Positions 1 to 9,984 of a stretch of DNA of 52,043 nt are shown here, one piece after another. The position numbers were made by a program, and so were the translations under genes. The stretch's first letter is position 1; every line of letters starts with the position of its first letter. Location: the NCBI GenBank assembly GCA_003151975.1, contig PLZD01000058.1, forward strand, positions 1 to 52,043. Direction: 5' to 3'. The notes under the pieces are model-generated. The model saw nothing but the letters and a program-made list of their open reading frames with translations. It ran no database searches and was not told the origin of the DNA. The stretch comes from Elusimicrobiota bacterium. Lineage in GTDB: Bacteria; Elusimicrobiota; Elusimicrobia; UBA1565; UBA9628.

Positions 1-581
1 GCCGAACAGTTGATCGCGACGAATTCCCCAGAACGCCCGGATTGATCGTGGATGACGCGGGCCAAGCTCGTCTTGCCGGTGCCCGACGGCCCGAGAATCA
101 GCATGGGAAGCTCGGACGAGGCGTACTTAAGCGCCTCGGCGACCGCCGCGCGCGTGGCCGCGTCCTCGGTGATGAAGCGGTCCTTGAAGAGCAGCTCGGG
201 GTCCGAGGTCTGGCGGCGGCGGGAGAAACGCTCGATCACCACGCCGATGTTGCTTTCCTCATTTCCTTTCGCGTAGAAATCGTCGCAGCCCAGGGCGTAG
301 GCGCGCTCGACGATCGGTTCGCCGTCGTGGCCGGACATCACCACGGAATAGATCCCTTTGGCCGCCGTGACTGGGATGAGCTCCAGCCCCGAGACGTCGC
401 CGTCGCCGCCGAGGTCGAGATCGATGAAGCAGAGGTCTGGTGCTCCGGCCTGCAGCTTCTTGAGGGCCGAGGCCTTGTCGGCGGCAAACTCCACGTCATG
501 GGCCGCGAGATGCATGCCCATGACCTTGCGCGCGAGCGGATCGTCTTCCACGACCAGGATCGAGAGTTTTTCCATAGGCAT
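1..581 (-). CDS. Sigma-54-type response regulator, N-terminal part (runs off window)
   Basis: A receiver domain followed by the start of an AAA+ domain, as in NtrC-family activators of sigma-54 promoters. Numbering from the ATG at 575: acidic pocket E10-D11-D12, probable phospho-acceptor D52 in the FIDLDL stretch, conserved K103, then a Walker A loop GPSGTGKTS at 162-170 and the characteristic FVAINCS just before the window ends. The gene reads leftwards and its C-terminal half lies outside. Two in-frame ATGs are possible (581, giving MPMEKL, and 575); neither has a strong Shine-Dalgarno. It ends the minus-strand block but is separated from the TPR gene by about 50 bases, so it may have its own promoter. 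The class assignment is firm; the target genes are unknown. Confidence 0.88.
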   Translation of the reverse strand, partial: MPMEKLSILVVEDDPLARKVMGMHLAAHDVEFAADKASALKKLQAGAPDLCFIDLDLGGDGDVSGLELIPVTAAKGIYSVVMSGHDGEPIVERAYALGCDDFYAKGNEESNIGVVIERFSRRRQTSDPELLFKDRFITEDAATRAAVAEALKYASSELPMLILGPSGTGKTSLARVIHDQSGRSGEFVAINCS

Positions 582-632: not shown

Positions 633-1322
633 TTAAACGCCGCAGCTAGGAGGCACTTGGCCTACAGCCCTGAACTCATCGCAGGCATTCATCTTCTTGA
701 CCGCCGCAGGATCCAAGGCAACGGCTCTTTCGTAGGACCGAACCGCCTCGTTGGACCGCCCCAGCTTCAGAAGAAAAAGGCCTCGGAAGAAGTGCGGCAT
801 TGCGTACTTGGGATCAAGAGCGACAGCCCTATCCTCTTCACGAAGCGCCTCCTGTAGCCGTCCTTGCTGGGACAAGACTTTGCCCTTGAGCATTCTCAGA
901 TTCTTCAAGAGGATCGTCTCATCCGAGTCCAGCGCCTTGCCCTCCAGGGCCTTGATGCCGATGTCCAGGTCCGGCCCGGCGGATGCGATATCTCCGGCGG
1001 CCGCCTCCATCATACCCCGCTCGCCGATCATCTCGATGCGATCCTCCGGAGCCACACCCTGCTCGCCCATGACGGCGTCGATATCGTTCTTGGCGCCCAA
1101 ATAGTTGCCTTTGGCCACGTTCTGCATGGTCTTTTGGTAGAGCATGACCAAATGCATCACCAGGCGCTGAGACAGGATCTTGCGCCTGACTTCGCCGAGG
1201 TCGTCATCGAAAGCGGACGTCGGCGCGGACCCCGGAACCTGCATCGCGACGGCCGCAGGCTGCGCGCGAGCCAATCTCAACAGAGGCCCAAACGCCAAGA
1301 CGATCGCCAGCATATGTTTCAT
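633..1322 (-). CDS. Secreted TPR-repeat protein, last gene of the radical SAM cluster
   Basis: 229 residues with an N-terminal signal peptide (hydrophobic stretch ending ARAQ near residue 21), so probably periplasmic or cell-surface. The C-terminal half holds at least two TPR units ending in the typical DPKY and DPAA turns, with paired helices HFFRGLFLLKLGRSNEAV. The last 20 residues carry two cysteines that might form a disulfide. The start overlaps the preceding radical SAM gene stop by four bases (ATGA), so it is translationally coupled to it and belongs to the same operon. TPR proteins usually scaffold protein contacts; a role in handling the cluster's product is inference only. No catalytic motif is visible. 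Confidence 0.75.
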   Translation of the reverse strand: MKHMLAIVLAFGPLLRLARAQPAAVAMQVPGSAPTSAFDDDLGEVRRKILSQRLVMHLVMLYQKTMQNVAKGNYLGAKNDIDAVMGEQGVAPEDRIEMIGERGMMEAAAGDIASAGPDLDIGIKALEGKALDSDETILLKNLRMLKGKVLSQQGRLQEALREEDRAVALDPKYAMPHFFRGLFLLKLGRSNEAVRSYERAVALDPAAVKKMNACDEFRAVGQVPPSCGV

Positions 1323-2380
1323 ACCATCTCCTTGATGTTCGATTGATTAAGAAGCGCCTTCTTATAGCTGAAAAGGGGATTTAAATCGAGGTTACGGTCG
1401 CAGCCCTTTTGGAAGGAATACATGTCGGAACCGACGCAGATCATCTTCGGGCAGGCCGAATAACCGCCGAACAACGGGGGAAGTTCCGGGTCGGTCACGA
1501 AGTTGTTGTTGTCCCGCTCGTGGCAGCCGACGATAACCGTGCCGTACGCGTCCATGCAGTAGGCAACCGCCGGAAACAGGCACAGAATTCCCAGCGGGCT
1601 GGCCTTCTCGTACTTGTGCCGATAGTCGATCGAGGGCAGCCGCTGCTTGAAGACGGCGGCCGTCGGCGCGTCGTATTCTCTTTCGCCACTGACCAGCGGG
1701 TTCGGATTGACGGGGATGTCCGGATTCAAAGCCGCGCGCAGCTCCTCGAAACGACCTCTATTGAGCTTGGTCACCACGAAGTTCACCATGCCGATGTTGA
1801 AGCCGGCGGCCCGATATTCGCCGATCCTGCGCACAAACCTCTCGAGGGTGAAATAATCAGGATGGAAAGAGCAGTTCAACCAGATCTTTCCCTTCTCCTT
1901 GACGGTTTCAAAGGATTTGCGGGCCCAAGATGCGTTGGTGTCCATCCGCACGTTGCGGATGTAGCTTCTTCGGCAGAGCTCTCCCAGAAGAAAGGCCATG
2001 TTCTTTGTGTCAAGAGTAGGCTCTCCGCCCGAAAGCAACAGCGAGACCCCGCGATCCCCGCCGCCGAAATGACGATCGAAGGCCTCGAGCCACTTTTCGG
2101 CCCGGAATGCGTCGAAGCAATGCTTATGCGCCGTCGCCCGCTCCTCGTTTTGCCAGCAATATGAACAAGCAAAATTGCATCCGATCGTGCATTGCCACCT
2201 GAAAAGAATGTTGCGCTTCGCCTTGGACGGGGTTCGCTCTGGGGTGGGGTCGTCCCGAGGAAAGGTCCGGTCATTGTAGAGCCATAACCGCTCGAGCGCA
2301 TCCCGACCGCTCCGCGTCTCCGAGGAGAAGACGGATTGATAGTTCTTCAGCAGGACCGCGGCGGTCTCGGCATTCTCCAC
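1319..2380 (-). CDS. Radical SAM enzyme (third of the cluster)
   Basis: 353 residues. After a 60-residue N-terminal extension comes the canonical CxxxCxxC iron-sulfur motif (C68, C72, C75, with an extra C64), then the SAM-binding LSGGEPTLD and a MDTNAS strand, typical of radical SAM enzymes. The C-terminal third has a further group of cysteines (LCLF, YCMDAYGTVIVGCHE, ACPKMICVG, GCDRN) laid out like a SPASM/twitch domain that binds auxiliary Fe-S clusters. Such enzymes often modify ribosomal peptides. The start used is GTG at 2380 without an obvious Shine-Dalgarno; the codons just upstream also read like protein until a stop. It lies 45 bases after the secreted-protein gene and overlaps the TPR gene. 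The substrate is unknown. Confidence 0.88.
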   Translation of the reverse strand: MENAETAAVLLKNYQSVFSSETRSGRDALERLWLYNDRTFPRDDPTPERTPSKAKRNILFRWQCTIGCNFACSYCWQNEERATAHKHCFDAFRAEKWLEAFDRHFGGGDRGVSLLLSGGEPTLDTKNMAFLLGELCRRSYIRNVRMDTNASWARKSFETVKEKGKIWLNCSFHPDYFTLERFVRRIGEYRAAGFNIGMVNFVVTKLNRGRFEELRAALNPDIPVNPNPLVSGEREYDAPTAAVFKQRLPSIDYRHKYEKASPLGILCLFPAVAYCMDAYGTVIVGCHERDNNNFVTDPELPPLFGGYSACPKMICVGSDMYSFQKGCDRNLDLNPLFSYKKALLNQSNIKEMV

Positions 2381-2425
2381 ATAACGAGACGGATCAATTT
2401 CTGTGCCGAACCCTCGGCCTCACGA

Positions 2426-3271
2426 TCATTTCGTCCGAAGCGTCATGGAGAGTTGTCTGAGGACATAACTGTCGCGTTTCTCGAAGATTGACTCCTGAAG
2501 GTCCCCCCTCAGGAGGAGCCCCCGGTATTCTCCTTCCAGCGGCACAAACATTGTGAGTTGATAGTCCGTGCGGATGGGAGCCTTCGAATTCTTATCTTTG
2601 AAAGTGTTCCCCGGAGTCGCCACCTTGAACACCGCGCAGCGAATCCCGTCCACAATATCGACGCGGTCGTAGGTCTGCACACTGCTTCCATTCCTGAAGA
2701 CTCCAAAGTCCAGGGGAATTTTCTTGGGGGGCTTAATGACGATGTCGCCCGGCCGCTGAGCGCTCGAAATATCATCGATGATCGATTGGAAAGTATGGAT
2801 GTCCATCGTCTTATAGAAAACGAAGGTGCCCGCCTCAGACGACAAATAGGGCGCGAAGAACGCGCCCGTCCTGTTGACGATTTTCCCATCCGAATCATAT
2901 TCATAGCCAAAATCGGAAGGGAAGCCCGGGATGGCGCTGGAGAGCGAGATGGACGGAGCTTGATTATATTTTTTCGGCGCGGCGGAGCGATACAGGCCGT
3001 CGCTGAATTCTATCCGCCGGCGCGCCGTGCCGCTGCTGACCCCCACAACACGTATCCTCAGATTGACGCGCACGCCTGAAATCGAGCGCAGCGTCTTCGG
3101 CCTCAAGAGCCCAGCTTCAGGCTTCGCGTCGTAGACATAGTCTGTATCTTCAAAATAATACCTCAGCGTCTCGCCCTTGCGGTACGAGTGCCGGGCGATG
3201 CCGCCGTCCGCGGCCCGAGCCGCGCCAAGGCTTGAGAAAAATAAGCCGCCGACAGCCAAAGCCCGTCTCAT
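2426..3271 (-). CDS. Secreted protein of unknown function in the radical SAM cluster
   Basis: 281 residues beginning MRRALAVGG with a signal peptide cleaved near ARAADG, so exported. The remainder is predicted by eye to be beta-rich, with GETLRYYFED near the N terminus and a YDRVDIVDGIRCAVF stretch later, a pattern reminiscent of periplasmic beta-sandwich proteins of the DUF3108 or DUF6263 kind; I am not sure of the family. The chosen start overlaps the upstream radical SAM stop by ATGA; a longer reading to 3445 would run inside that gene and looks like a shadow. It sits between two radical SAM genes in the same operon, so it may receive, hold or display the modified product. Confidence 0.7.
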   Translation of the reverse strand: MRRALAVGGLFFSSLGAARAADGGIARHSYRKGETLRYYFEDTDYVYDAKPEAGLLRPKTLRSISGVRVNLRIRVVGVSSGTARRRIEFSDGLYRSAAPKKYNQAPSISLSSAIPGFPSDFGYEYDSDGKIVNRTGAFFAPYLSSEAGTFVFYKTMDIHTFQSIIDDISSAQRPGDIVIKPPKKIPLDFGVFRNGSSVQTYDRVDIVDGIRCAVFKVATPGNTFKDKNSKAPIRTDYQLTMFVPLEGEYRGLLLRGDLQESIFEKRDSYVLRQLSMTLRTK

Positions 3272-4296
3272 TTCGCTCCCGCGACTTGCGCATCGAGCGT
3301 CTCGCAGGACGGTTCTCGCATGGCAAGCAAAGCCAGCTTTATCTCCGTCGACTCGGTCGACGCCTCCGCGTGCCGGCGAAAAGCCTCTGCGGCGGAGGGC
3401 GCCAGCATGACGCTCATGCACATATCGCAGCCGGAAGTGAAACAATTCCGCGGAAGGCCCTTGGCGGCCTCAGGCTGCGCCCGCATGCTCTCGGCCACTC
3501 CGCGCGGGCCATGCGCCACGAGATACTGGTAATCCGAACGCTTTCGTGCGGCGCCCATGATCTCGACGAAGGAGGACTCCCTGAGGTTTCCCAGCGCATA
3601 AGGAGAGCTCTTAATGCTCCGGTGCGAGGAGACCTTGCCGATATGGCAGGCGAAGACGTCCCCGTTGGGATTGATCAAGGGAGTCCCCATAAAACAGCTG
3701 CTCTCATAGTTCTTTGGAGACAAGTCGAACTGAGGGATGTACTGCGTCTCATCCCGCCGCATCCCCTTGTTCGGAATTAGAAGCTGGGAGGTGATCTCAA
3801 CGCGTCCGCCGTAGCACGAATACCACGACGACACCTCTGCGAGATCCCGCTGGTTCGCGTAGGTGATGGTCATCGTGATTCGCGGAATGCCGATCTCGAG
3901 CGCGGCATCGATCGCGTTGTAGACGTGAGTAAGCGGAACGCGCTCCTGATGGTACTTGTCCGTGCTGATGTAGAGCTGGCGGAGCGTGGAGATCTCGCGC
4001 AGTGTCTCCCGGGCGCTCTCGGGGGTCTTAGCCCAAAAGGCGCTCGTAAAAACGGCCGTGGGGACGCCGCTCTCGTGAGCGCGGCGCACGCCGCGCCCAA
4101 GCAGGTCGAAGCGCTCGAACGCCTCGCCGCCGGTGAATATGATCTTAGGGATCGCGTAAATGCACAACTGCCCCACCCAATCCGCCATCTCGTCGACGGT
4201 CATCTCGCGGTCTCTTCTTGAACCGATGTAGCCGCAGTGCCGGCAGCCCACGTGACACCGTTCCGTGACATTGATAAGGATGTTATATATTTTCAT
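3268..4296 (-). CDS. Radical SAM enzyme with C-terminal cysteine cluster (second of the cluster)
   Basis: 342 residues. The radical SAM motif is almost at the N terminus (C14, C18, C21 in CHVGCRHC), followed by IIFTGGEAF, the usual SAM-contacting GGE segment. The C-terminal region has CFMGTPLINPNGDVFACH and later CFTSGCDMCMSV, a cysteine layout like SPASM-type auxiliary cluster domains. The first part resembles peptide- or small-molecule-modifying radical SAM proteins, but I cannot name the reaction. It starts inside the stop of the glycosyltransferase-like gene (ATGA) and its own stop overlaps the secreted protein start in the same way, so it is embedded in a translationally coupled chain. 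Confidence 0.88.
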   Translation of the reverse strand: MKIYNILINVTERCHVGCRHCGYIGSRRDREMTVDEMADWVGQLCIYAIPKIIFTGGEAFERFDLLGRGVRRAHESGVPTAVFTSAFWAKTPESARETLREISTLRQLYISTDKYHQERVPLTHVYNAIDAALEIGIPRITMTITYANQRDLAEVSSWYSCYGGRVEITSQLLIPNKGMRRDETQYIPQFDLSPKNYESSCFMGTPLINPNGDVFACHIGKVSSHRSIKSSPYALGNLRESSFVEIMGAARKRSDYQYLVAHGPRGVAESMRAQPEAAKGLPRNCFTSGCDMCMSVMLAPSAAEAFRRHAEASTESTEIKLALLAMREPSCETLDAQVAGAK

Positions 4297-5444
4297 ATCG
4301 TGAGTTGCGCCTCCGATTTCTCGATCACGTACGAGCCGGCCCGGGGCATTGCTCTCAAGCTTTCCACATAACTCGCTTGCCTCTCCAACGACCGGCAGCG
4401 CGCGGCTCCCTCAGAAGTCAGGTCCCTCAGCGCGCAGATCAGGGATCCAGGCCTGGACAGCTCGGCGACCGTGACGGCCTTAAGAAGCGGATTCCTGGAC
4501 AGTACAGGCTCGAGAAAGCGGGAGTAGCCCAAAGGCCATATCCGAAAGGGATAAGGCAAGACGGTCCTGCCGACGCCGGAATCAATGTGCTGCACGAGGA
4601 TTACCGGCACGCCCGCCCCGAGAGCCTTCGCCTGCGAGGCGCAGACGGGGCTCAAGGACAGATAGACCGCGCTGCGCGACAGCAGGCGCATGTAGTCCGC
4701 CGGCGGCAGGGCGCCTACCCAGCGATATCGGGAACCGAGAGACTGGAAACCCGGCAAGGGCTCGGCGCCAGCATGGACGAGGTCCAGTCCCTCGACTTCG
4801 CCGACGGCGGCGGCAATCAACCCCGGGACCTCACGCTGGACGACGGCCCCGCGTTCGTCCTCGAGGTCCGCGTGCTGCCATGGACTGGTGGAGACCATCG
4901 CATACGATCGATCGATCGCCTCGCGTGGCGGCCGCTCCGCCGGCGGGTGAAACAACCCCGAACAAACTTCCTCCCCGTCTTGGGTCCTGCAAAGGGGCGC
5001 GATCCTGATCGGGTTCAGCCATTCCGGCCAAGACTCCAAAGCGCGCTTGCCATCGCCGAACACATCCGCCTCCAGCCCGGTCTCGGCGTGGCTCCAAGTG
5101 TCGACGGCAAGCACGCGCGCTCCCGTCCGCGCGAAAAGGGCGGGATCCAACTTCACTTGGCGCAGGGCGTGAAGCACGCTGTCACCGTCGCAGAACACGA
5201 CGCCCACCGGCTCCAGCCGGTCAAGCAAATCCTCGAAATAGAGCTTAAGCAGAGCTCCGGGTAGATTCGGAATGATCTCCATCGCAAGATCGCTTCCATC
5301 GAATGCGCCCGCACCGGCCGTGCCGCAGACCACGCGCACATCGCGGCCCAGGCGGCCGATATCCTCGCCCAGTTCGCGTGCGAGCGCGGCCCTGCCCCAG
5401 GCGTTGTCGCCGAAGCACAGCAAGAGGTAGCCGCCATTCTTCAT
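4293..5444 (-). CDS. Glycosyltransferase-like protein, paralogue B
   Basis: 383 residues starting with a Rossmann-like strand (YLLLCFGDNAWGRAALA) and a second nucleotide-binding-like half (LVHAGAEP, VGALPPADYMRLLSRSAVYLSLSPVCASQAKALGAGVPVIL), the arrangement of GT-B glycosyltransferases. It is clearly homologous to the protein at 7526-8830: both carry YPF-x2-WPLG followed by SFLEP or RFLEP and NP-LL/FL. There is no signal peptide or membrane segment, so it is cytosolic. Four-base overlaps link it to the radical SAM gene downstream and to the pyruvyl transferase-like gene upstream. Sugar transfer is inferred from fold-like features; donor and acceptor are unknown, and a non-catalytic role is possible. 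Confidence 0.65.
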   Translation of the reverse strand: MKNGGYLLLCFGDNAWGRAALARELGEDIGRLGRDVRVVCGTAGAGAFDGSDLAMEIIPNLPGALLKLYFEDLLDRLEPVGVVFCDGDSVLHALRQVKLDPALFARTGARVLAVDTWSHAETGLEADVFGDGKRALESWPEWLNPIRIAPLCRTQDGEEVCSGLFHPPAERPPREAIDRSYAMVSTSPWQHADLEDERGAVVQREVPGLIAAAVGEVEGLDLVHAGAEPLPGFQSLGSRYRWVGALPPADYMRLLSRSAVYLSLSPVCASQAKALGAGVPVILVQHIDSGVGRTVLPYPFRIWPLGYSRFLEPVLSRNPLLKAVTVAELSRPGSLICALRDLTSEGAARCRSLERQASYVESLRAMPRAGSYVIEKSEAQLTI

Positions 5445-6649
5445 GACAGGACCATCCCGGCCAGCCGATCAAAATGCTTGCCGAGTTCCGCGGCCAACCT
5501 CTCGCGCACGGCGGCAATGTACCCCCGGCCGAGATCCTTCGCGTCCTGGGCGGCCCGGCGCACATCGGCGCGCCCTGCCAAGAGGTCCGCAAGGGTGAAA
5601 TAGAATCGTTCGAGCCCGCATTGGACCGCAAACTCCCGCATCTTGCTGGTCCGCGTGTGCGCGCTGTGATAGGGATCGATCATGATGAAGGGCGTGCCGG
5701 CAGAAAGCGCCAGGATGCAGGAATGGAGCCGAAAGCCCACGATGACGTCGACACCGGCGAAGAAATCCAGGGTCGCCTCGAGATCGCCGTCCCACAAGCG
5801 GCGGTAAGGAGCCCGGAGCTTGCGCGCCAGGGGCTCACAGACCAAGTCGTCGCCGTACATCTCTCCGAAAGCGGAGACGACGACATCCCCCCCATCGGCC
5901 AGCCCGGCGAGGCCCCGCTCGAGCTCATCGGTGTAGCGATCGTCACTATAGTCCGAGGCTTCGTCGTACCGGCGCATCTCGACCAACGCGAAATCGCACA
6001 CGTCCATGTTCGCCGCGGCGACACCCGCCACTTGCGACAAAAATCGGAGAGGGAATACGGGGCGGCCGGCCGCGACGGCGACGGTCGCTCGCTTCGATCG
6101 CCGACGGGGTCCGACCTCCGCGCCAGCCACCACGCAGATATCGGGAATGACGTCGATGGACCCCTTCACGCCGCAATCCTCGAGATAGCTCCGCGTCCTC
6201 GCGTTGCGCACAGCCCGATAGGCAACGCGGTCGCAAGCGCTAGACATAAAATCGCGCCAGACGCGCTCCGCGGGAGCGCGGTGCTGCGCATCGGAACAGA
6301 CTCCGTTCCAAAGAATAGGGCATTCGTCCTTGAAGCGGGATGGGTAGGGTCCGAGCAGGAAGAACTGGCTGGACGGATCGCGGAACGGCGGCCCCACCAG
6401 CAGGGCTCCACCGCCGATGACGATGGCGTCGAATTTCCCCTGCCCACTCCACACGCCGCTCCGATCGATCCTGAGCGTGTTTCGGCAATAGCGGCCCGGC
6501 CAGGGCGTAAAGGTGGTAAACTCGGCACCCGGAATCCGGCGCGCAAGCTCCCGCCGCGTGACCTGATCAATGGCCTGGTCGCCAATGTTGTCCAAGCCCG
6601 AACCATTCCAAAGCGCGACGCGCGGATGTCCGTTGCTCATCGGGGTCAT
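5441..6649 (-). CDS. Polysaccharide pyruvyl transferase family protein
   Basis: 402 residues. Family signs (CsaB/WcaK, PF04230): an N-terminal N-x-GDQAI glycine loop after a short beta strand, VIGGGALLVG about 90 residues in, and near residue 310 the segment VIVGFRLHSCILALSAGTPFIMIDP, which matches the conserved R-x-H region that binds the PEP-derived group in this family. Members transfer a pyruvyl ketal from PEP to a sugar or, in some cases, act as glycosyltransferase-like enzymes. Its place between a radical SAM gene and a glycosyltransferase-like gene, with ATGA overlaps on both sides, ties it to the same product. Family confidence is high; the substrate is inferred to be a sugar made or attached by its neighbours. 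Confidence 0.85.
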   Translation of the reverse strand: MTPMSNGHPRVALWNGSGLDNIGDQAIDQVTRRELARRIPGAEFTTFTPWPGRYCRNTLRIDRSGVWSGQGKFDAIVIGGGALLVGPPFRDPSSQFFLLGPYPSRFKDECPILWNGVCSDAQHRAPAERVWRDFMSSACDRVAYRAVRNARTRSYLEDCGVKGSIDVIPDICVVAGAEVGPRRRSKRATVAVAAGRPVFPLRFLSQVAGVAAANMDVCDFALVEMRRYDEASDYSDDRYTDELERGLAGLADGGDVVVSAFGEMYGDDLVCEPLARKLRAPYRRLWDGDLEATLDFFAGVDVIVGFRLHSCILALSAGTPFIMIDPYHSAHTRTSKMREFAVQCGLERFYFTLADLLAGRADVRRAAQDAKDLGRGYIAAVRERLAAELGKHFDRLAGMVLS

Positions 6650-7563
6650 GCGGGCGCTCCGGCGAGCCGCTGCCTGACGGCGGAAAACTCATCCCAGCCG
6701 TGGTATTGGATGTATTCCGGGTAGACCCCGCCGCAGTCCTTCTTGAAGGAGCAGCTTTGACAGGGAGCGCCCATCACCTTCATGCGATTGGTCATGAAAC
6801 CGTCGTAGTCTGAAATGACCTGGCCGCGCATCAGCATCTTGATCTGACGGTTCTCCGTGTTGAGCTGATGCTCGATGAGCTCCGGCACGCTGCAGAAAGG
6901 GAACCCTTCCAGCGTGAGGCGCCGTCCTGCGGCAAGAGCCGCGGCGCCCGCCGCCTTGACGCTCTCGGCGACCAGCTTCAACCTCGGCATGGTGCGGCCG
7001 AGAGAGAACATCGAGCTGCCCACGGGGTGAAAATTTGAGATGTTAATATGGTCAACGCCGAGGCCGCAGGCGAGGCCGACGATGCGCGTCAGGTCGTGGG
7101 AGTTCTGCTGCGTGACGACCGTGTTCGTCCGGACCCGCGCGCCGAGCGTCTTCACGTTCCTGATGCCTTGAAGGGTCTTCTCGAATCCTCCGGGCGTGTG
7201 CGTCAGCTCGTCATGGACCTCAGCATCGGCGGCATGCAGCGAGATGATAAACAGGTTGGCCCCGCTTTCGACGGCCCGCCGTGCGAAATCGATCTTCGCG
7301 ATATTGATCCCGTTGGTCTGGACATGGATCTCAGGATATCCCAGCCGCTTGATGAGCTCCAGAGTCTCGAAGAACTTGGGGTGGATCGTCGCTTCGCCAC
7401 CATGCAGGTTGACCGCGGCGTAGCCTTGTCCAGCGTGGCTTTCAAGGAATCGCACGACCTCGGCGTGTTTGACGCTGTCGGAGACGTAAAGAGGCGACGC
7501 TACGACGCAAAAGGCACACTTGCTGTTACAGAGATCGGTCAGGTGAACACTGAGCTGTTTCAT
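6646..7563 (-). CDS. Radical SAM/SPASM-like enzyme (first of the cluster)
   Basis: 305 residues. N-terminal CNSKCAFC (C12, C16, C19) and LHGGEATIHP are radical SAM hallmarks; the SISLHAADAE strand is typical of SPASM-subfamily proteins such as peptide maturases. Near the C terminus C268, C271 and C277 form CxxCxxxxxC followed by GG and YPEY, a short auxiliary-cluster motif. The ATG at 7563 is preceded by a GGGAG about 11 bases upstream and lies 38 bases inside the end of the preceding glycosyltransferase-like gene. It is the first radical SAM gene after the precursor-like gene and so the best candidate for the initial modification. The three radical SAM proteins share only the core motifs and are not recent duplicates. 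Confidence 0.9.
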   Translation of the reverse strand: MKQLSVHLTDLCNSKCAFCVVASPLYVSDSVKHAEVVRFLESHAGQGYAAVNLHGGEATIHPKFFETLELIKRLGYPEIHVQTNGINIAKIDFARRAVESGANLFIISLHAADAEVHDELTHTPGGFEKTLQGIRNVKTLGARVRTNTVVTQQNSHDLTRIVGLACGLGVDHINISNFHPVGSSMFSLGRTMPRLKLVAESVKAAGAAALAAGRRLTLEGFPFCSVPELIEHQLNTENRQIKMLMRGQVISDYDGFMTNRMKVMGAPCQSCSFKKDCGGVYPEYIQYHGWDEFSAVRQRLAGAPA

Positions 7564-8830
7564 ATGTTAGGGGGCTCCCGGTTATGCGGCTCAGCGCCGC
7601 TTCGAAGGCGGTCGACGGCGTCGGCAACTCCATCAACCGCTTCTTAAAATCGGCCTGCCTTCGCCTCAGCTTGTAGACCGCGGCCTGCGAAAAGAGCAGC
7701 TCGCGAATCGTCTCGACGACTTGCACGCCGTCGAGCAACTCGATGCGGCGGAGCGTCTCGAGGAAGGGGTTCTCCTTGAGCGTCGGCTCCAAGAACGACT
7801 GAAGGCCTAGCGGCCAGAGCGTGAACGGATACAGAGGCAGCAAAGCGGAAGCGCTCTCTTGGACGATGGGATGCAGGGGGCCGCCTACGAACTCCCCGAG
7901 CTCGTCCAGCGTCCGGGCTTGGCAGGAATTTCCGAGCACCACGACCGGCAGCCCCGCGGCGACGGCTCGGATGGTGGTCACGCCGGAGATGTTGAGACTC
8001 AGGAACAGATCGGCACTGCGCATCAGCATCTCGAAGATGTCCGCGCCCTGGGGCGGCATCCAGTGGTAGCGGTCGGCGCCGAGAGCGAGCCCGTCGTATC
8101 GCGTGGGCCCGATATGCACGAGATGGACCGACGGTCCGAGGCTGGATAGATATTTTGAGATCAGCGGCGGCACAGCCGCGGCCAAGCGCTCTCCGTCGCG
8201 GTTCCTGTACGGACCGTACTGCCACGCCGAGGTGCAGAAAAGAACGAGCTTCTCGCCGTAGCCGATGCCGAACTCCCTTCGAATATGACGGCGGACGGCG
8301 GAAGACAGCGGGACACCCTGCGGGAAAAAGCGGCAAACGCCGGATCCGGCATTCCAGTTCAGAAACGGGACCGGCTTGAGACGGTGCGGGAGCTTTTCGA
8401 GCCACGCCTCCGCGTCTAATGCGTCGGCGCCGGTCCCGAACATGTCCATACTGGGTCCGGAGACGGCGGAGTTCCAGGTGTCGATCCCGGTGACCGGGAC
8501 GCCGCTGCGGAAAAGAGCATCGGGCCCGGCCCCAGCGCGCTTGAGCGCGCGGATGGAGGTCACGATGTCGCAAAGCACGACGGCCGCCGGCCGGGATTTC
8601 TTGATCTTCTCATCGAGCATGAGTTCGAGAAAAGGCATCATCGCCTCGGGCAAGGGAGTGACGGCGATGCCGCCGCCATGGAAGAGCTGCGCCGTCGAAT
8701 CGTGAATCAAGGCCTCGACCTTCCAGCCGGACTCGAGCAGTTCCTTGCCCAAATGCACGGCGAAGGCCGTCTCGCCCCAACCTTTGGGCGTAGGCGCAAG
8801 CAGCAGGACCGACCCGCGCTCAGCTGGCAT
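7526..8830 (-). CDS. Glycosyltransferase-like protein, paralogue A
   Basis: 434 residues, homologous to the protein at 4293-5444 and 50 residues longer, mostly at the C terminus. It begins with a strand-loop VLLLAPTPKGWGETAFAVHLG, has a central LVLFCTSAWQYGPYRNRDGER, then LVHIGPTRY, ADLFLSLNISGVTTIRAVAAGLPVVVLG, which resembles the donor-binding half of GT-B enzymes, and finally YPFTLWPLGLQSFLEP shared with its paralogue. No signal peptide. The start overlaps the nucleotidyltransferase stop by 11 bases and its end overlaps the radical SAM gene by 38, so the operon is tightly coupled. Function is inferred from fold-like features and from the sugar-activating enzyme next door. Confidence 0.65.
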   Translation of the reverse strand: MPAERGSVLLLAPTPKGWGETAFAVHLGKELLESGWKVEALIHDSTAQLFHGGGIAVTPLPEAMMPFLELMLDEKIKKSRPAAVVLCDIVTSIRALKRAGAGPDALFRSGVPVTGIDTWNSAVSGPSMDMFGTGADALDAEAWLEKLPHRLKPVPFLNWNAGSGVCRFFPQGVPLSSAVRRHIRREFGIGYGEKLVLFCTSAWQYGPYRNRDGERLAAAVPPLISKYLSSLGPSVHLVHIGPTRYDGLALGADRYHWMPPQGADIFEMLMRSADLFLSLNISGVTTIRAVAAGLPVVVLGNSCQARTLDELGEFVGGPLHPIVQESASALLPLYPFTLWPLGLQSFLEPTLKENPFLETLRRIELLDGVQVVETIRELLFSQAAVYKLRRRQADFKKRLMELPTPSTAFEAALSRITGSPLTYETAQCSPDRSL

Positions 8831-9638
8831 AGGTTCCTACAGGCGCGTTCTCACCGGCGATCATCTCGATCGACCGGCGCAGGAACTCGCCCCACCCCGT
8901 TGAAGTCCCGAGATCAAAAAAACGTCCCTCCGGGAAATATTGAGCGCGAACGTCCAGCCCGCGCTCAACGGCGGCCTGAAAAACCTCTCCCAGTATGGGC
9001 CCCGAAGCTTCGCCGGCCGCTTTCTGATTCTTTTCGGCGAGCAACTGGGTGAAACGCGGCCCCCAAACGGCGATCGCCCATGTATTCTTGATCGAGCATT
9101 CCTTAGGCTTGTCCAGAACCTCAAGAACGGCGCCGTCGACTCCGATGCGGACGGGGCCGAGCTGTTCAGGAATAGAAGTCGGGAAAACGCCCAAGACGAC
9201 GTCGGCTGACGCGGCGCTGAACGCGGCGCACACGTCCCGCAAAGCGGACGCCGGCTCGATAATGGTATCGGGCAGGGTAAGGCACACATTGCGCCCCATG
9301 AGCCATGGCGAGGCGGCATCGACGGCGTCCGCAAGCCCCCGCGGCAAGCGCCGGACCGCATAGACAAGCGACTGCCCGTGCGATTCCCCGCCGCCGAAGA
9401 CCTGCATGATCTCGTGCTTGAGCTCGGAAATCACGACGATGGACCTCCTCACCCTAGCGCGCTCGAGCATCTCTAAGGAATACGCCATAACCGGCCTCGG
9501 CCTCATGCCGAGCGTCGTGACATTCCCATCGAAGGCGATCGGCAGCAATTCCTTCGGGTAGCCCATGGGTCCCAAACGGGAGCCGAGCCCCGCGGCGGGA
9601 ATCACTCCCACGAAGCCCGGCTCCTCGTTGGCGCTCAT
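8820..9638 (-). CDS. Sugar-1-phosphate nucleotidyltransferase
   Basis: 272 residues starting MSANEEPGFVGVIPAAG. The signature GLGSRLGPMGYPKELLPI is the nucleotide-binding loop of GalU/RmlA-type enzymes, which join a nucleoside triphosphate and a sugar-1-phosphate to give an NDP-sugar. LPDTIIEP is the usual metal/nucleotide aspartate strand, and LDKPKE the lysine-containing sugar-binding segment. The start chosen is one base after the stop of the precursor-like gene; an upstream in-frame extension lies inside that gene and has low-complexity arginine-serine sequence. As the second gene of the operon it probably supplies the activated sugar for the two glycosyltransferase-like proteins. Which sugar and which nucleotide cannot be told from the sequence. 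Confidence 0.87.
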   Translation of the reverse strand: MSANEEPGFVGVIPAAGLGSRLGPMGYPKELLPIAFDGNVTTLGMRPRPVMAYSLEMLERARVRRSIVVISELKHEIMQVFGGGESHGQSLVYAVRRLPRGLADAVDAASPWLMGRNVCLTLPDTIIEPASALRDVCAAFSAASADVVLGVFPTSIPEQLGPVRIGVDGAVLEVLDKPKECSIKNTWAIAVWGPRFTQLLAEKNQKAAGEASGPILGEVFQAAVERGLDVRAQYFPEGRFFDLGTSTGWGEFLRRSIEMIAGENAPVGTYAS

Positions 9639-9639
9639 T

Positions 9640-9984
9640 TCAGGCTCTGCTGTAATCCACGTCGTGCACCCGCGGCCCCTCGATCGATTCCTTGGAGTTC
9701 TTGAGCTTGATGATCTGATCATCGGTCAGATTGTACGCGCTCCGGAACTGCTCGGGATTATTCAGAAGCTCGTCGGCGAACTGCGGGTCGCTCACTGCGC
9801 GCAGCAAGGCGGCGTGCAGGCTCGGGGCTGCCTCGGCCTGCGCCGACGGATTCTGACCGTCGGCATCTCGATTTCCGAATTCCTGCTCAGCTGCCGACGC
9901 CGTCGCCCCGCCCGCCAGCAGCACCGCGCCGGCGGCCAGCAGCGGCAGCACCAGCCCCCTCGCGTCTTTCTTCGTATCAGACAT
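9640..9984 (-). CDS. Candidate precursor peptide of the radical SAM/glycosyltransferase cluster
   Basis: 114 residues; the ATG at 9984 follows a perfect AGGAGG seven bases upstream. Three parts are visible: residues 1-33, basic then strongly hydrophobic and ending in ATASAA like a signal peptide or membrane anchor; a Q/A/N-rich linker; residues 60-98 with ALLRAVSDPQFADELLNNP and YNLTDDQIIKLKN, a short helical domain like the leader regions of NHLP/LigA-like ribosomal peptide precursors; and a final tail GPRVHDVDYSRA rich in charged residues, His and Tyr and without Cys. It is the first gene of an operon containing three radical SAM enzymes, two glycosyltransferase-like proteins and a pyruvyl transferase-like protein. 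The precursor role is inference; the alternative is a small periplasmic protein. Confidence 0.6.
   Translation of the reverse strand: MSDTKKDARGLVLPLLAAGAVLLAGGATASAAEQEFGNRDADGQNPSAQAEAAPSLHAALLRAVSDPQFADELLNNPEQFRSAYNLTDDQIIKLKNSKESIEGPRVHDVDYSRA

Follow-up and report, generated by a model that had tools for sequence, protein, structure and literature searches.

We report here a candidate peptide-modification operon in a genome of the phylum Elusimicrobiota. ORF and domain analysis of the window (the first 52 kb of the 210-kb contig C55, in a genome of 4.6 Mb and 68 contigs) delineates ten minus-strand genes that form one tightly packed set from position 9984 down to position 633 (Table 1). 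A RiPP-like pathway leading to a glycosylated, perhaps pyruvylated, Sec-exported peptide is the best and most economical reading of this set, and we hold its chances to be about even; the substrate, the reaction order, the sugar and the ketal are those that we infer. That the operon would define a new class of ribosomal peptides, with a Sec-exported precursor carrying an inner leader-like segment, three radical SAM enzymes, glycosylation by DUF6365 proteins of GT-B fold and a pyruvyl-ketal sugar, is a more tentative proposal, well short of even chances. Because the operon occurs as a single copy and the leader match is marginal, we regard it as no more than a candidate for a new peptide pathway.

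Table 1. Genes of the operon, in order of transcription, and the gene downstream of it
Feature	Position	Strand	Remarks
Candidate precursor, 114 aa	9640..9984	-	Sec-like signal LVLPLLAAGAVLLAGGATASA, AxA site, Os1348/NHLP leader-like segment (residues 58-98), tail KNSKESIEGPRVHDVDYSRA
Sugar-1-phosphate nucleotidyltransferase	8820..9638	-	RmlA-like, PF00483, motif GLGSRL...PKELLPI
DUF6365 protein a	7526..8830	-	Predicted GT-B fold
Radical SAM enzyme A	6646..7563	-	CxxxCxxC; HxsC/HxsC4-like, below cut-offs
PF04230 protein	5441..6649	-	Ketal pyruvyltransferase/CsaB type; RLH...Y..K region present
DUF6365 protein b	4293..5444	-	29% identical to DUF6365 protein a
Radical SAM enzyme B	3268..4296	-	Weak SPASM; N-terminal half YydG (peptide epimerase)-like
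Secreted protein without family match	2426..3271	-	One clear relative in the phylum, unlinked to radical SAM genes
Radical SAM enzyme C	1319..2380	-	STM4011-like, below cut-off
Secreted TPR protein	633..1322	-	TPR domain call
Receiver and sigma-54-activator response regulator	1..581	-	Cut by contig end; own promoter-like site 613-584; probably a separate unit

The ten open reading frames lie at the positions and on the strand given by an earlier sequence-only reading of this DNA, whose account of the sequence proved accurate. It had described genes linked by overlaps or tiny gaps, mostly ATGA, and indeed five of the nine junctions are ATGA overlaps. In transcription order, the junction distances are +1, -11, -38, -4, -4, -4, -4, +45 and -4 bp, the single real gap (45 bp) being located ahead of radical SAM enzyme C. 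This tight coupling supports the single operon, headed by the small secreted-type gene, that had been proposed. All ten genes show a GC3>GC2 coding signature, and three probably start inside the longest open reading frame (the small gene at 9984, the nucleotidyltransferase at 9638 and the secreted protein at 3271). Since position 1 of the window is the first base of the contig, the operon adjoins the contig end. Its own end at 633 is probably natural, as the response regulator gene located 58 bp downstream has its own promoter-like site; upstream, a short-chain dehydrogenase gene is divergently oriented. The gene order suggests two blocks, each starting with a DUF6365 gene directly followed by a radical SAM gene, and each couple may act as a working pair.

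The small secreted-type peptide gene placed at the operon start by the earlier reading is borne out as a coding gene of 114 aa with a strong ribosome-binding site (AGGAGG) and a Sec-like signal. The product has a hydrophobic stretch at residues 11-29 (mean Kyte-Doolittle value of 2.03) with an AxA site after it, and this N-terminus is most naturally read as a Sec signal. Further along, 41 residues (58-98) match the NF038399 model of Os1348/NHLP RiPP leaders (E 9e-7). The match is retained in the mature part, without the signal (E 4.8e-7), disappears in the reversed sequence, and scores 29-30 bits (29.8) against an NCBI curated cut-off of 40. The duramycin-B and cinnamycin precursor families also match weakly on the same segment. 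A model built on eight Os1348 peptides found in this phylum did not separate the small protein from its shuffled copies. Judged from these comparisons, the protein resembles RiPP leaders in a broad sense without being a close member of the family, and its role as a precursor is putative. No convincing homologue was found in the phylum genomes or in the plasmids and phages searched; weak matches in other phylum genomes (E 0.001-0.007) were rejected, since such values are expected by chance across 341 genomes and the matches lie in mostly long open frames.

Within the phylum, broad-family Os1348 peptides occur with a LanM synthetase and a C39 exporter in one genome (G070), and beside polyprenyl-synthetase-like proteins, in places with a cNMP-PqqD-M50 protein, in others (G002, G038 and G014). 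No radical SAM gene was seen adjoining the peptides in these genomes, and such surroundings speak slightly against a general link to radical SAM genes. Tandem Os1348 peptides (two to three or more copies, over the cut-off) lie beside a polyprenyl-synthetase-like protein at loci of three genomes of the family (L088 5226-8775, L089 7393-9322 and L090 3748-7383). L088, and L090 as judged by eye, also has a fused cNMP-binding/PqqD/M50 metalloprotease related to the daptide and epipeptide proteases; the three loci, at which neither a radical SAM nor a LanM gene was seen, make up a candidate separate RiPP system. Another locus (L091 8565-14075, G070:C12) is an NHLP-type lanthipeptide cluster with at least five precursors bearing Gly-Gly sites, a LanM synthetase and a C39 peptidase ABC exporter.

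Three operon proteins match the radical SAM family PF04055 of Pfam (6e-9 to 1e-19) and keep the CxxxCxxC motif in their sequence, in agreement with the three different radical SAM enzymes first noticed. Their nearest NCBIfam families, HxsC4 and HxsC for enzyme A, YydG for enzyme B and STM4011 for enzyme C, include peptide maturases, none being reached at its equivalog cut-off. Enzyme A scores 118 and 101 bits against HXS-family cut-offs of 500 and 268. It is part of an expansion that spans the phylum: at 1e-20 it has matches in 61 of the 147 phylum genomes searched (this genome included), often in tandem arrays, and in the genomes searched for both, an HxsA4 gene lies within 25 kb of 58 of the 104 listed homologues. 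A local, largely peptide-associated pool of radical SAM enzymes is thus the most likely source of enzyme A; this favours, without proving, a protein substrate. Its best homologues sit in cytochrome/haem-type loci and not in peptide loci, and it also weakly matches BlsE (cytosylglucuronate decarboxylase), PqqE and the mycofactocin maturases. The loci of its closest relatives (L085 7723-10669 and L086 6601-8529) combine a CXXCH cytochrome-like protein and a membrane-protein-like gene with further radical SAM genes, one of which is close to haem b synthase AhbD.

For enzyme B, the peptide epimerase YydG is the only solved relative (3.5e-6 in the PDB; 5.5e-12 in NCBIfam), with 45.8 bits against an equivalog cut-off of 300. 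No relative was found at 1e-10 in the 147 genomes searched, and plasmid relatives (<31% identity) belong to type III CRISPR and other loci, not to similar operons. Two Allochromatium plasmids carry such distant relatives, SPASM radical SAM genes, within their type III-B CRISPR loci, where they adjoin EcsC-family and Csm6 genes (L098 7854-8879 and L100 6977-8002). A defence role, raised by matches to viperin, was set aside as generic radical SAM similarity.

The two homologous GT-like proteins of the earlier reading both match DUF6365 (1e-68 and 9e-22), are 29% identical (E 4e-43) and are predicted to adopt a GT-B fold. Indeed, the AlphaFold2 model of DUF6365, obtained from five sequences (mean pLDDT 67.7, pTM 0.63), has two Rossmann-like domains and matches GT-B structures with a Foldseek E of 1e-11 and a probability of 1.00; the TM-scores, of about 0.3-0.6, are moderate, so that the GT-B fold is supported and the activity is not. 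The top structure matches are the kitacinnamycin, vicenistatin and calicheamicin glycosyltransferases, followed by UDP-GlcNAc 2-epimerases. DUF6365 is therefore predicted to be a GT-B protein closest to natural-product glycosyltransferases, with a fold that would also fit UDP-GlcNAc 2-epimerases. Among the 341 phylum genomes searched, it is found in this genome only, and no paper on it was found in the literature searched. The other DUF6365 genes found lie among ketosynthase and chain-length-factor genes of actinomycetes, in clusters partly read by eye. These are type II polyketide clusters (L007 14959-16224 and L008-L010); L007 also has a pseudouridine-5'-phosphate glycosidase, hinting at C-glycosylation.

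The NDP-sugar enzyme proposed for the pathway is supported by a PF00483 match (2e-12) and by likeness to RmlA. The membership of the putative pyruvyl transferase in PF04230 was likewise confirmed (4e-17, 63.6 bits for a cut-off of 25.3); against the CsaB equivalog, the protein obtains 46.9 of 213 bits and misses the cut-off. No relative was found among 97 genomes at 1e-12, nor among plasmids.

Of the two secreted proteins, the one at 2426 (predicted structure with a pLDDT of 32) has one clear relative in the phylum (G004, 34% identity, E 8e-40), a lone gene among unrelated genes. Since this relative stands alone, the place of the 2426 protein in the pathway is unsupported, and so is the earlier proposal that it handles the peptide outside the cell. 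Repeats and known target motifs of radical SAM enzymes are absent from both secreted proteins.

Altogether, we can propose the following course for a RiPP-like pathway. The small protein would be made in the cytosol, where its Os1348/NHLP-like helix would serve as a docking segment and the three radical SAM enzymes would alter residues of the tail or linker, by epimerisation or by forming C-C or C-X bonds. The nucleotidyltransferase would provide an NDP-sugar, which the two DUF6365 GT-B proteins, each paired with the radical SAM enzyme encoded just after it, would put on the peptide, and the PF04230 protein may add a pyruvyl ketal to this sugar. Its own signal would then take the modified protein out by the Sec route, which would account for the lack of both an ABC exporter and a leader peptidase in the operon. 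A role outside the inner membrane may fall to the TPR protein and, with less certainty, to the 2426 protein.

Several observations favour the RiPP reading: the position of the small gene, first in a tightly coupled operon and behind a strong ribosome-binding site, its match to the leader model, the kinship of enzyme B with YydG, the HXS association of the enzyme A family, the likeness of DUF6365 to antibiotic glycosyltransferases and its presence in natural-product clusters, and the RmlA-like enzyme. Others count against it, namely the leader match below its cut-off, the failure of the phylum Os1348 model to recognise the small protein, and the lack of a small-protein homologue and of a second operon. 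Also counted against it is that Pfam detects no PqqD/RRE domain in any operon protein (divergent RREs could escape); such a domain is present in most RiPP pathways, not in all. A Sec signal ahead of a leader segment is unusual for RiPPs, and this too weighs against the RiPP reading. The peptide pathway inferred at the outset thus stands in part: the operon, the leader-like segment, the peptide-type kin of enzymes A and B, sugar activation with GT-B proteins and the PF04230 protein speak for it, and the role given to the 2426 protein is unsupported.

Comparison with known systems places the operon near several of them and inside none. In HXS systems (HxsA/B/C/D; TIGR03977, TIGR03978 and NF038313), which are common in this phylum and present in the same genome, the similarity lies in enzyme A, which is HxsC/HxsC4-like, and in a precursor with a hydrophobic N-terminal stretch; however, the operon has no HXS repeat, HxsB or HxsD, and it has sugar genes. 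Neither HxsA nor HxsB is matched among the ten proteins, and contig C55 has no HxsA4. Two HXS loci lie on other contigs of this genome, and their precursors also have a hydrophobic N-terminal stretch (HxsA4 precursors at L080 13431-13892 on G000:C27 and at G000:C57:144133-144570). The C27 locus has HxsB over its cut-off and several further tandem radical SAM genes, beyond the described HxsB/HxsC pair. With YydF/YydG epipeptides, the operon shares the YydG-like N-terminal half of enzyme B, but this enzyme is far below the cut-off, YydH/YydI-type genes are absent and the precursor differs. The first gene recalls Os1348/NHLP-clan precursors by its 41-residue leader-like match, but the match is below the cut-off, a Sec-like signal lies ahead of it, no Gly-Gly site follows the segment and there is no NHLM exporter. 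Mycofactocin and glycocins also combine a peptide with a glycosyltransferase (and, in mycofactocin, radical SAM chemistry), whereas the operon has GT-B DUF6365 proteins in place of a SunS-type GT2 and has no Mft proteins. Finally, type II polyketide clusters of Streptomyces and Saccharopolyspora have DUF6365 at 26-30% identity and an RmlA-type enzyme, but the GT-B protein and this enzyme are all that they share with the operon, which has no polyketide genes.

The main rival to the RiPP reading, in our view unlikely, is a non-peptide pathway in which the enzymes would build a sugar-based small molecule or a surface glycan, the small protein being an exported accessory or carrier. DUF6365 is found elsewhere in type II polyketide clusters, PF04230 and RmlA proteins are typical of glycan pathways, enzyme A weakly matches BlsE, and its best relatives are in cytochrome/haem-type loci. 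However, none of the ten genes encodes a flippase, polymerase, chain-length, polysaccharide export or further sugar-biosynthesis protein, which weakens this explanation, and the first gene carries a leader-like segment. The known exopolysaccharide locus without a peptide against which the first interpretation had been set was not found.

Two other explanations appear improbable, to the same degree. In one, a redox cofactor similar to mycofactocin or PQQ would arise from the peptide tail through excision, radical SAM modification and glycosylation. The operon does share the logic of mycofactocin, that is a radical SAM enzyme, a glycosyltransferase and a short precursor, and enzyme A weakly matches PqqE and mycofactocin maturases; but it has no MftB/PqqD chaperone, peptidase or dehydrogenase, the tail has neither a Val-Tyr end nor a Glu-Tyr pair, and the precursor bears an export signal. 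In the other, an HXS-like envelope system would act not on the small protein but on a larger exported one, such as the TPR protein or the product of a gene elsewhere. The enzyme A family is mostly near HXS loci and the operon encodes two secreted proteins, but these have no repeat or known target motif and the relative of the 2426 protein exists alone. Lastly, a chance juxtaposition at the contig end or a mis-binned contig, suggested by the location of the operon in the first 10 kb and by a genome contamination of 3.6%, is very improbable given ten tightly coupled genes on a 210-kb contig, and given that the 2426 protein finds its one clear relative, and enzyme A many of its relatives, in the same taxonomic family.

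The RiPP-like pathway, if it is one, has so far a single representative. No second copy of the operon was found in the 341 phylum genomes, in genome contigs (two pattern-based scans of limited sensitivity), or in viral contigs, plasmids and phages. Moreover, the operon corresponds to no known RiPP, glycocin, HXS or polysaccharide locus, and no paper joining RiPP, radical SAM, glycosyltransferase and pyruvyl transferase was found. The initial impression that the gene set matches no known pathway therefore agrees with the family libraries and the literature searched.

If the RiPP reading is true, radical peptide chemistry, antibiotic-type glycosylation and pyruvylation would be united in one operon. 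It would give DUF6365 its first role outside polyketide clusters, and in peptide chemistry, and would add a type of precursor that leaves by the Sec route and not by an ABC exporter. Furthermore, it would suggest that this phylum, rich in HXS radical SAM loci, holds more unlisted peptide-modifying systems.
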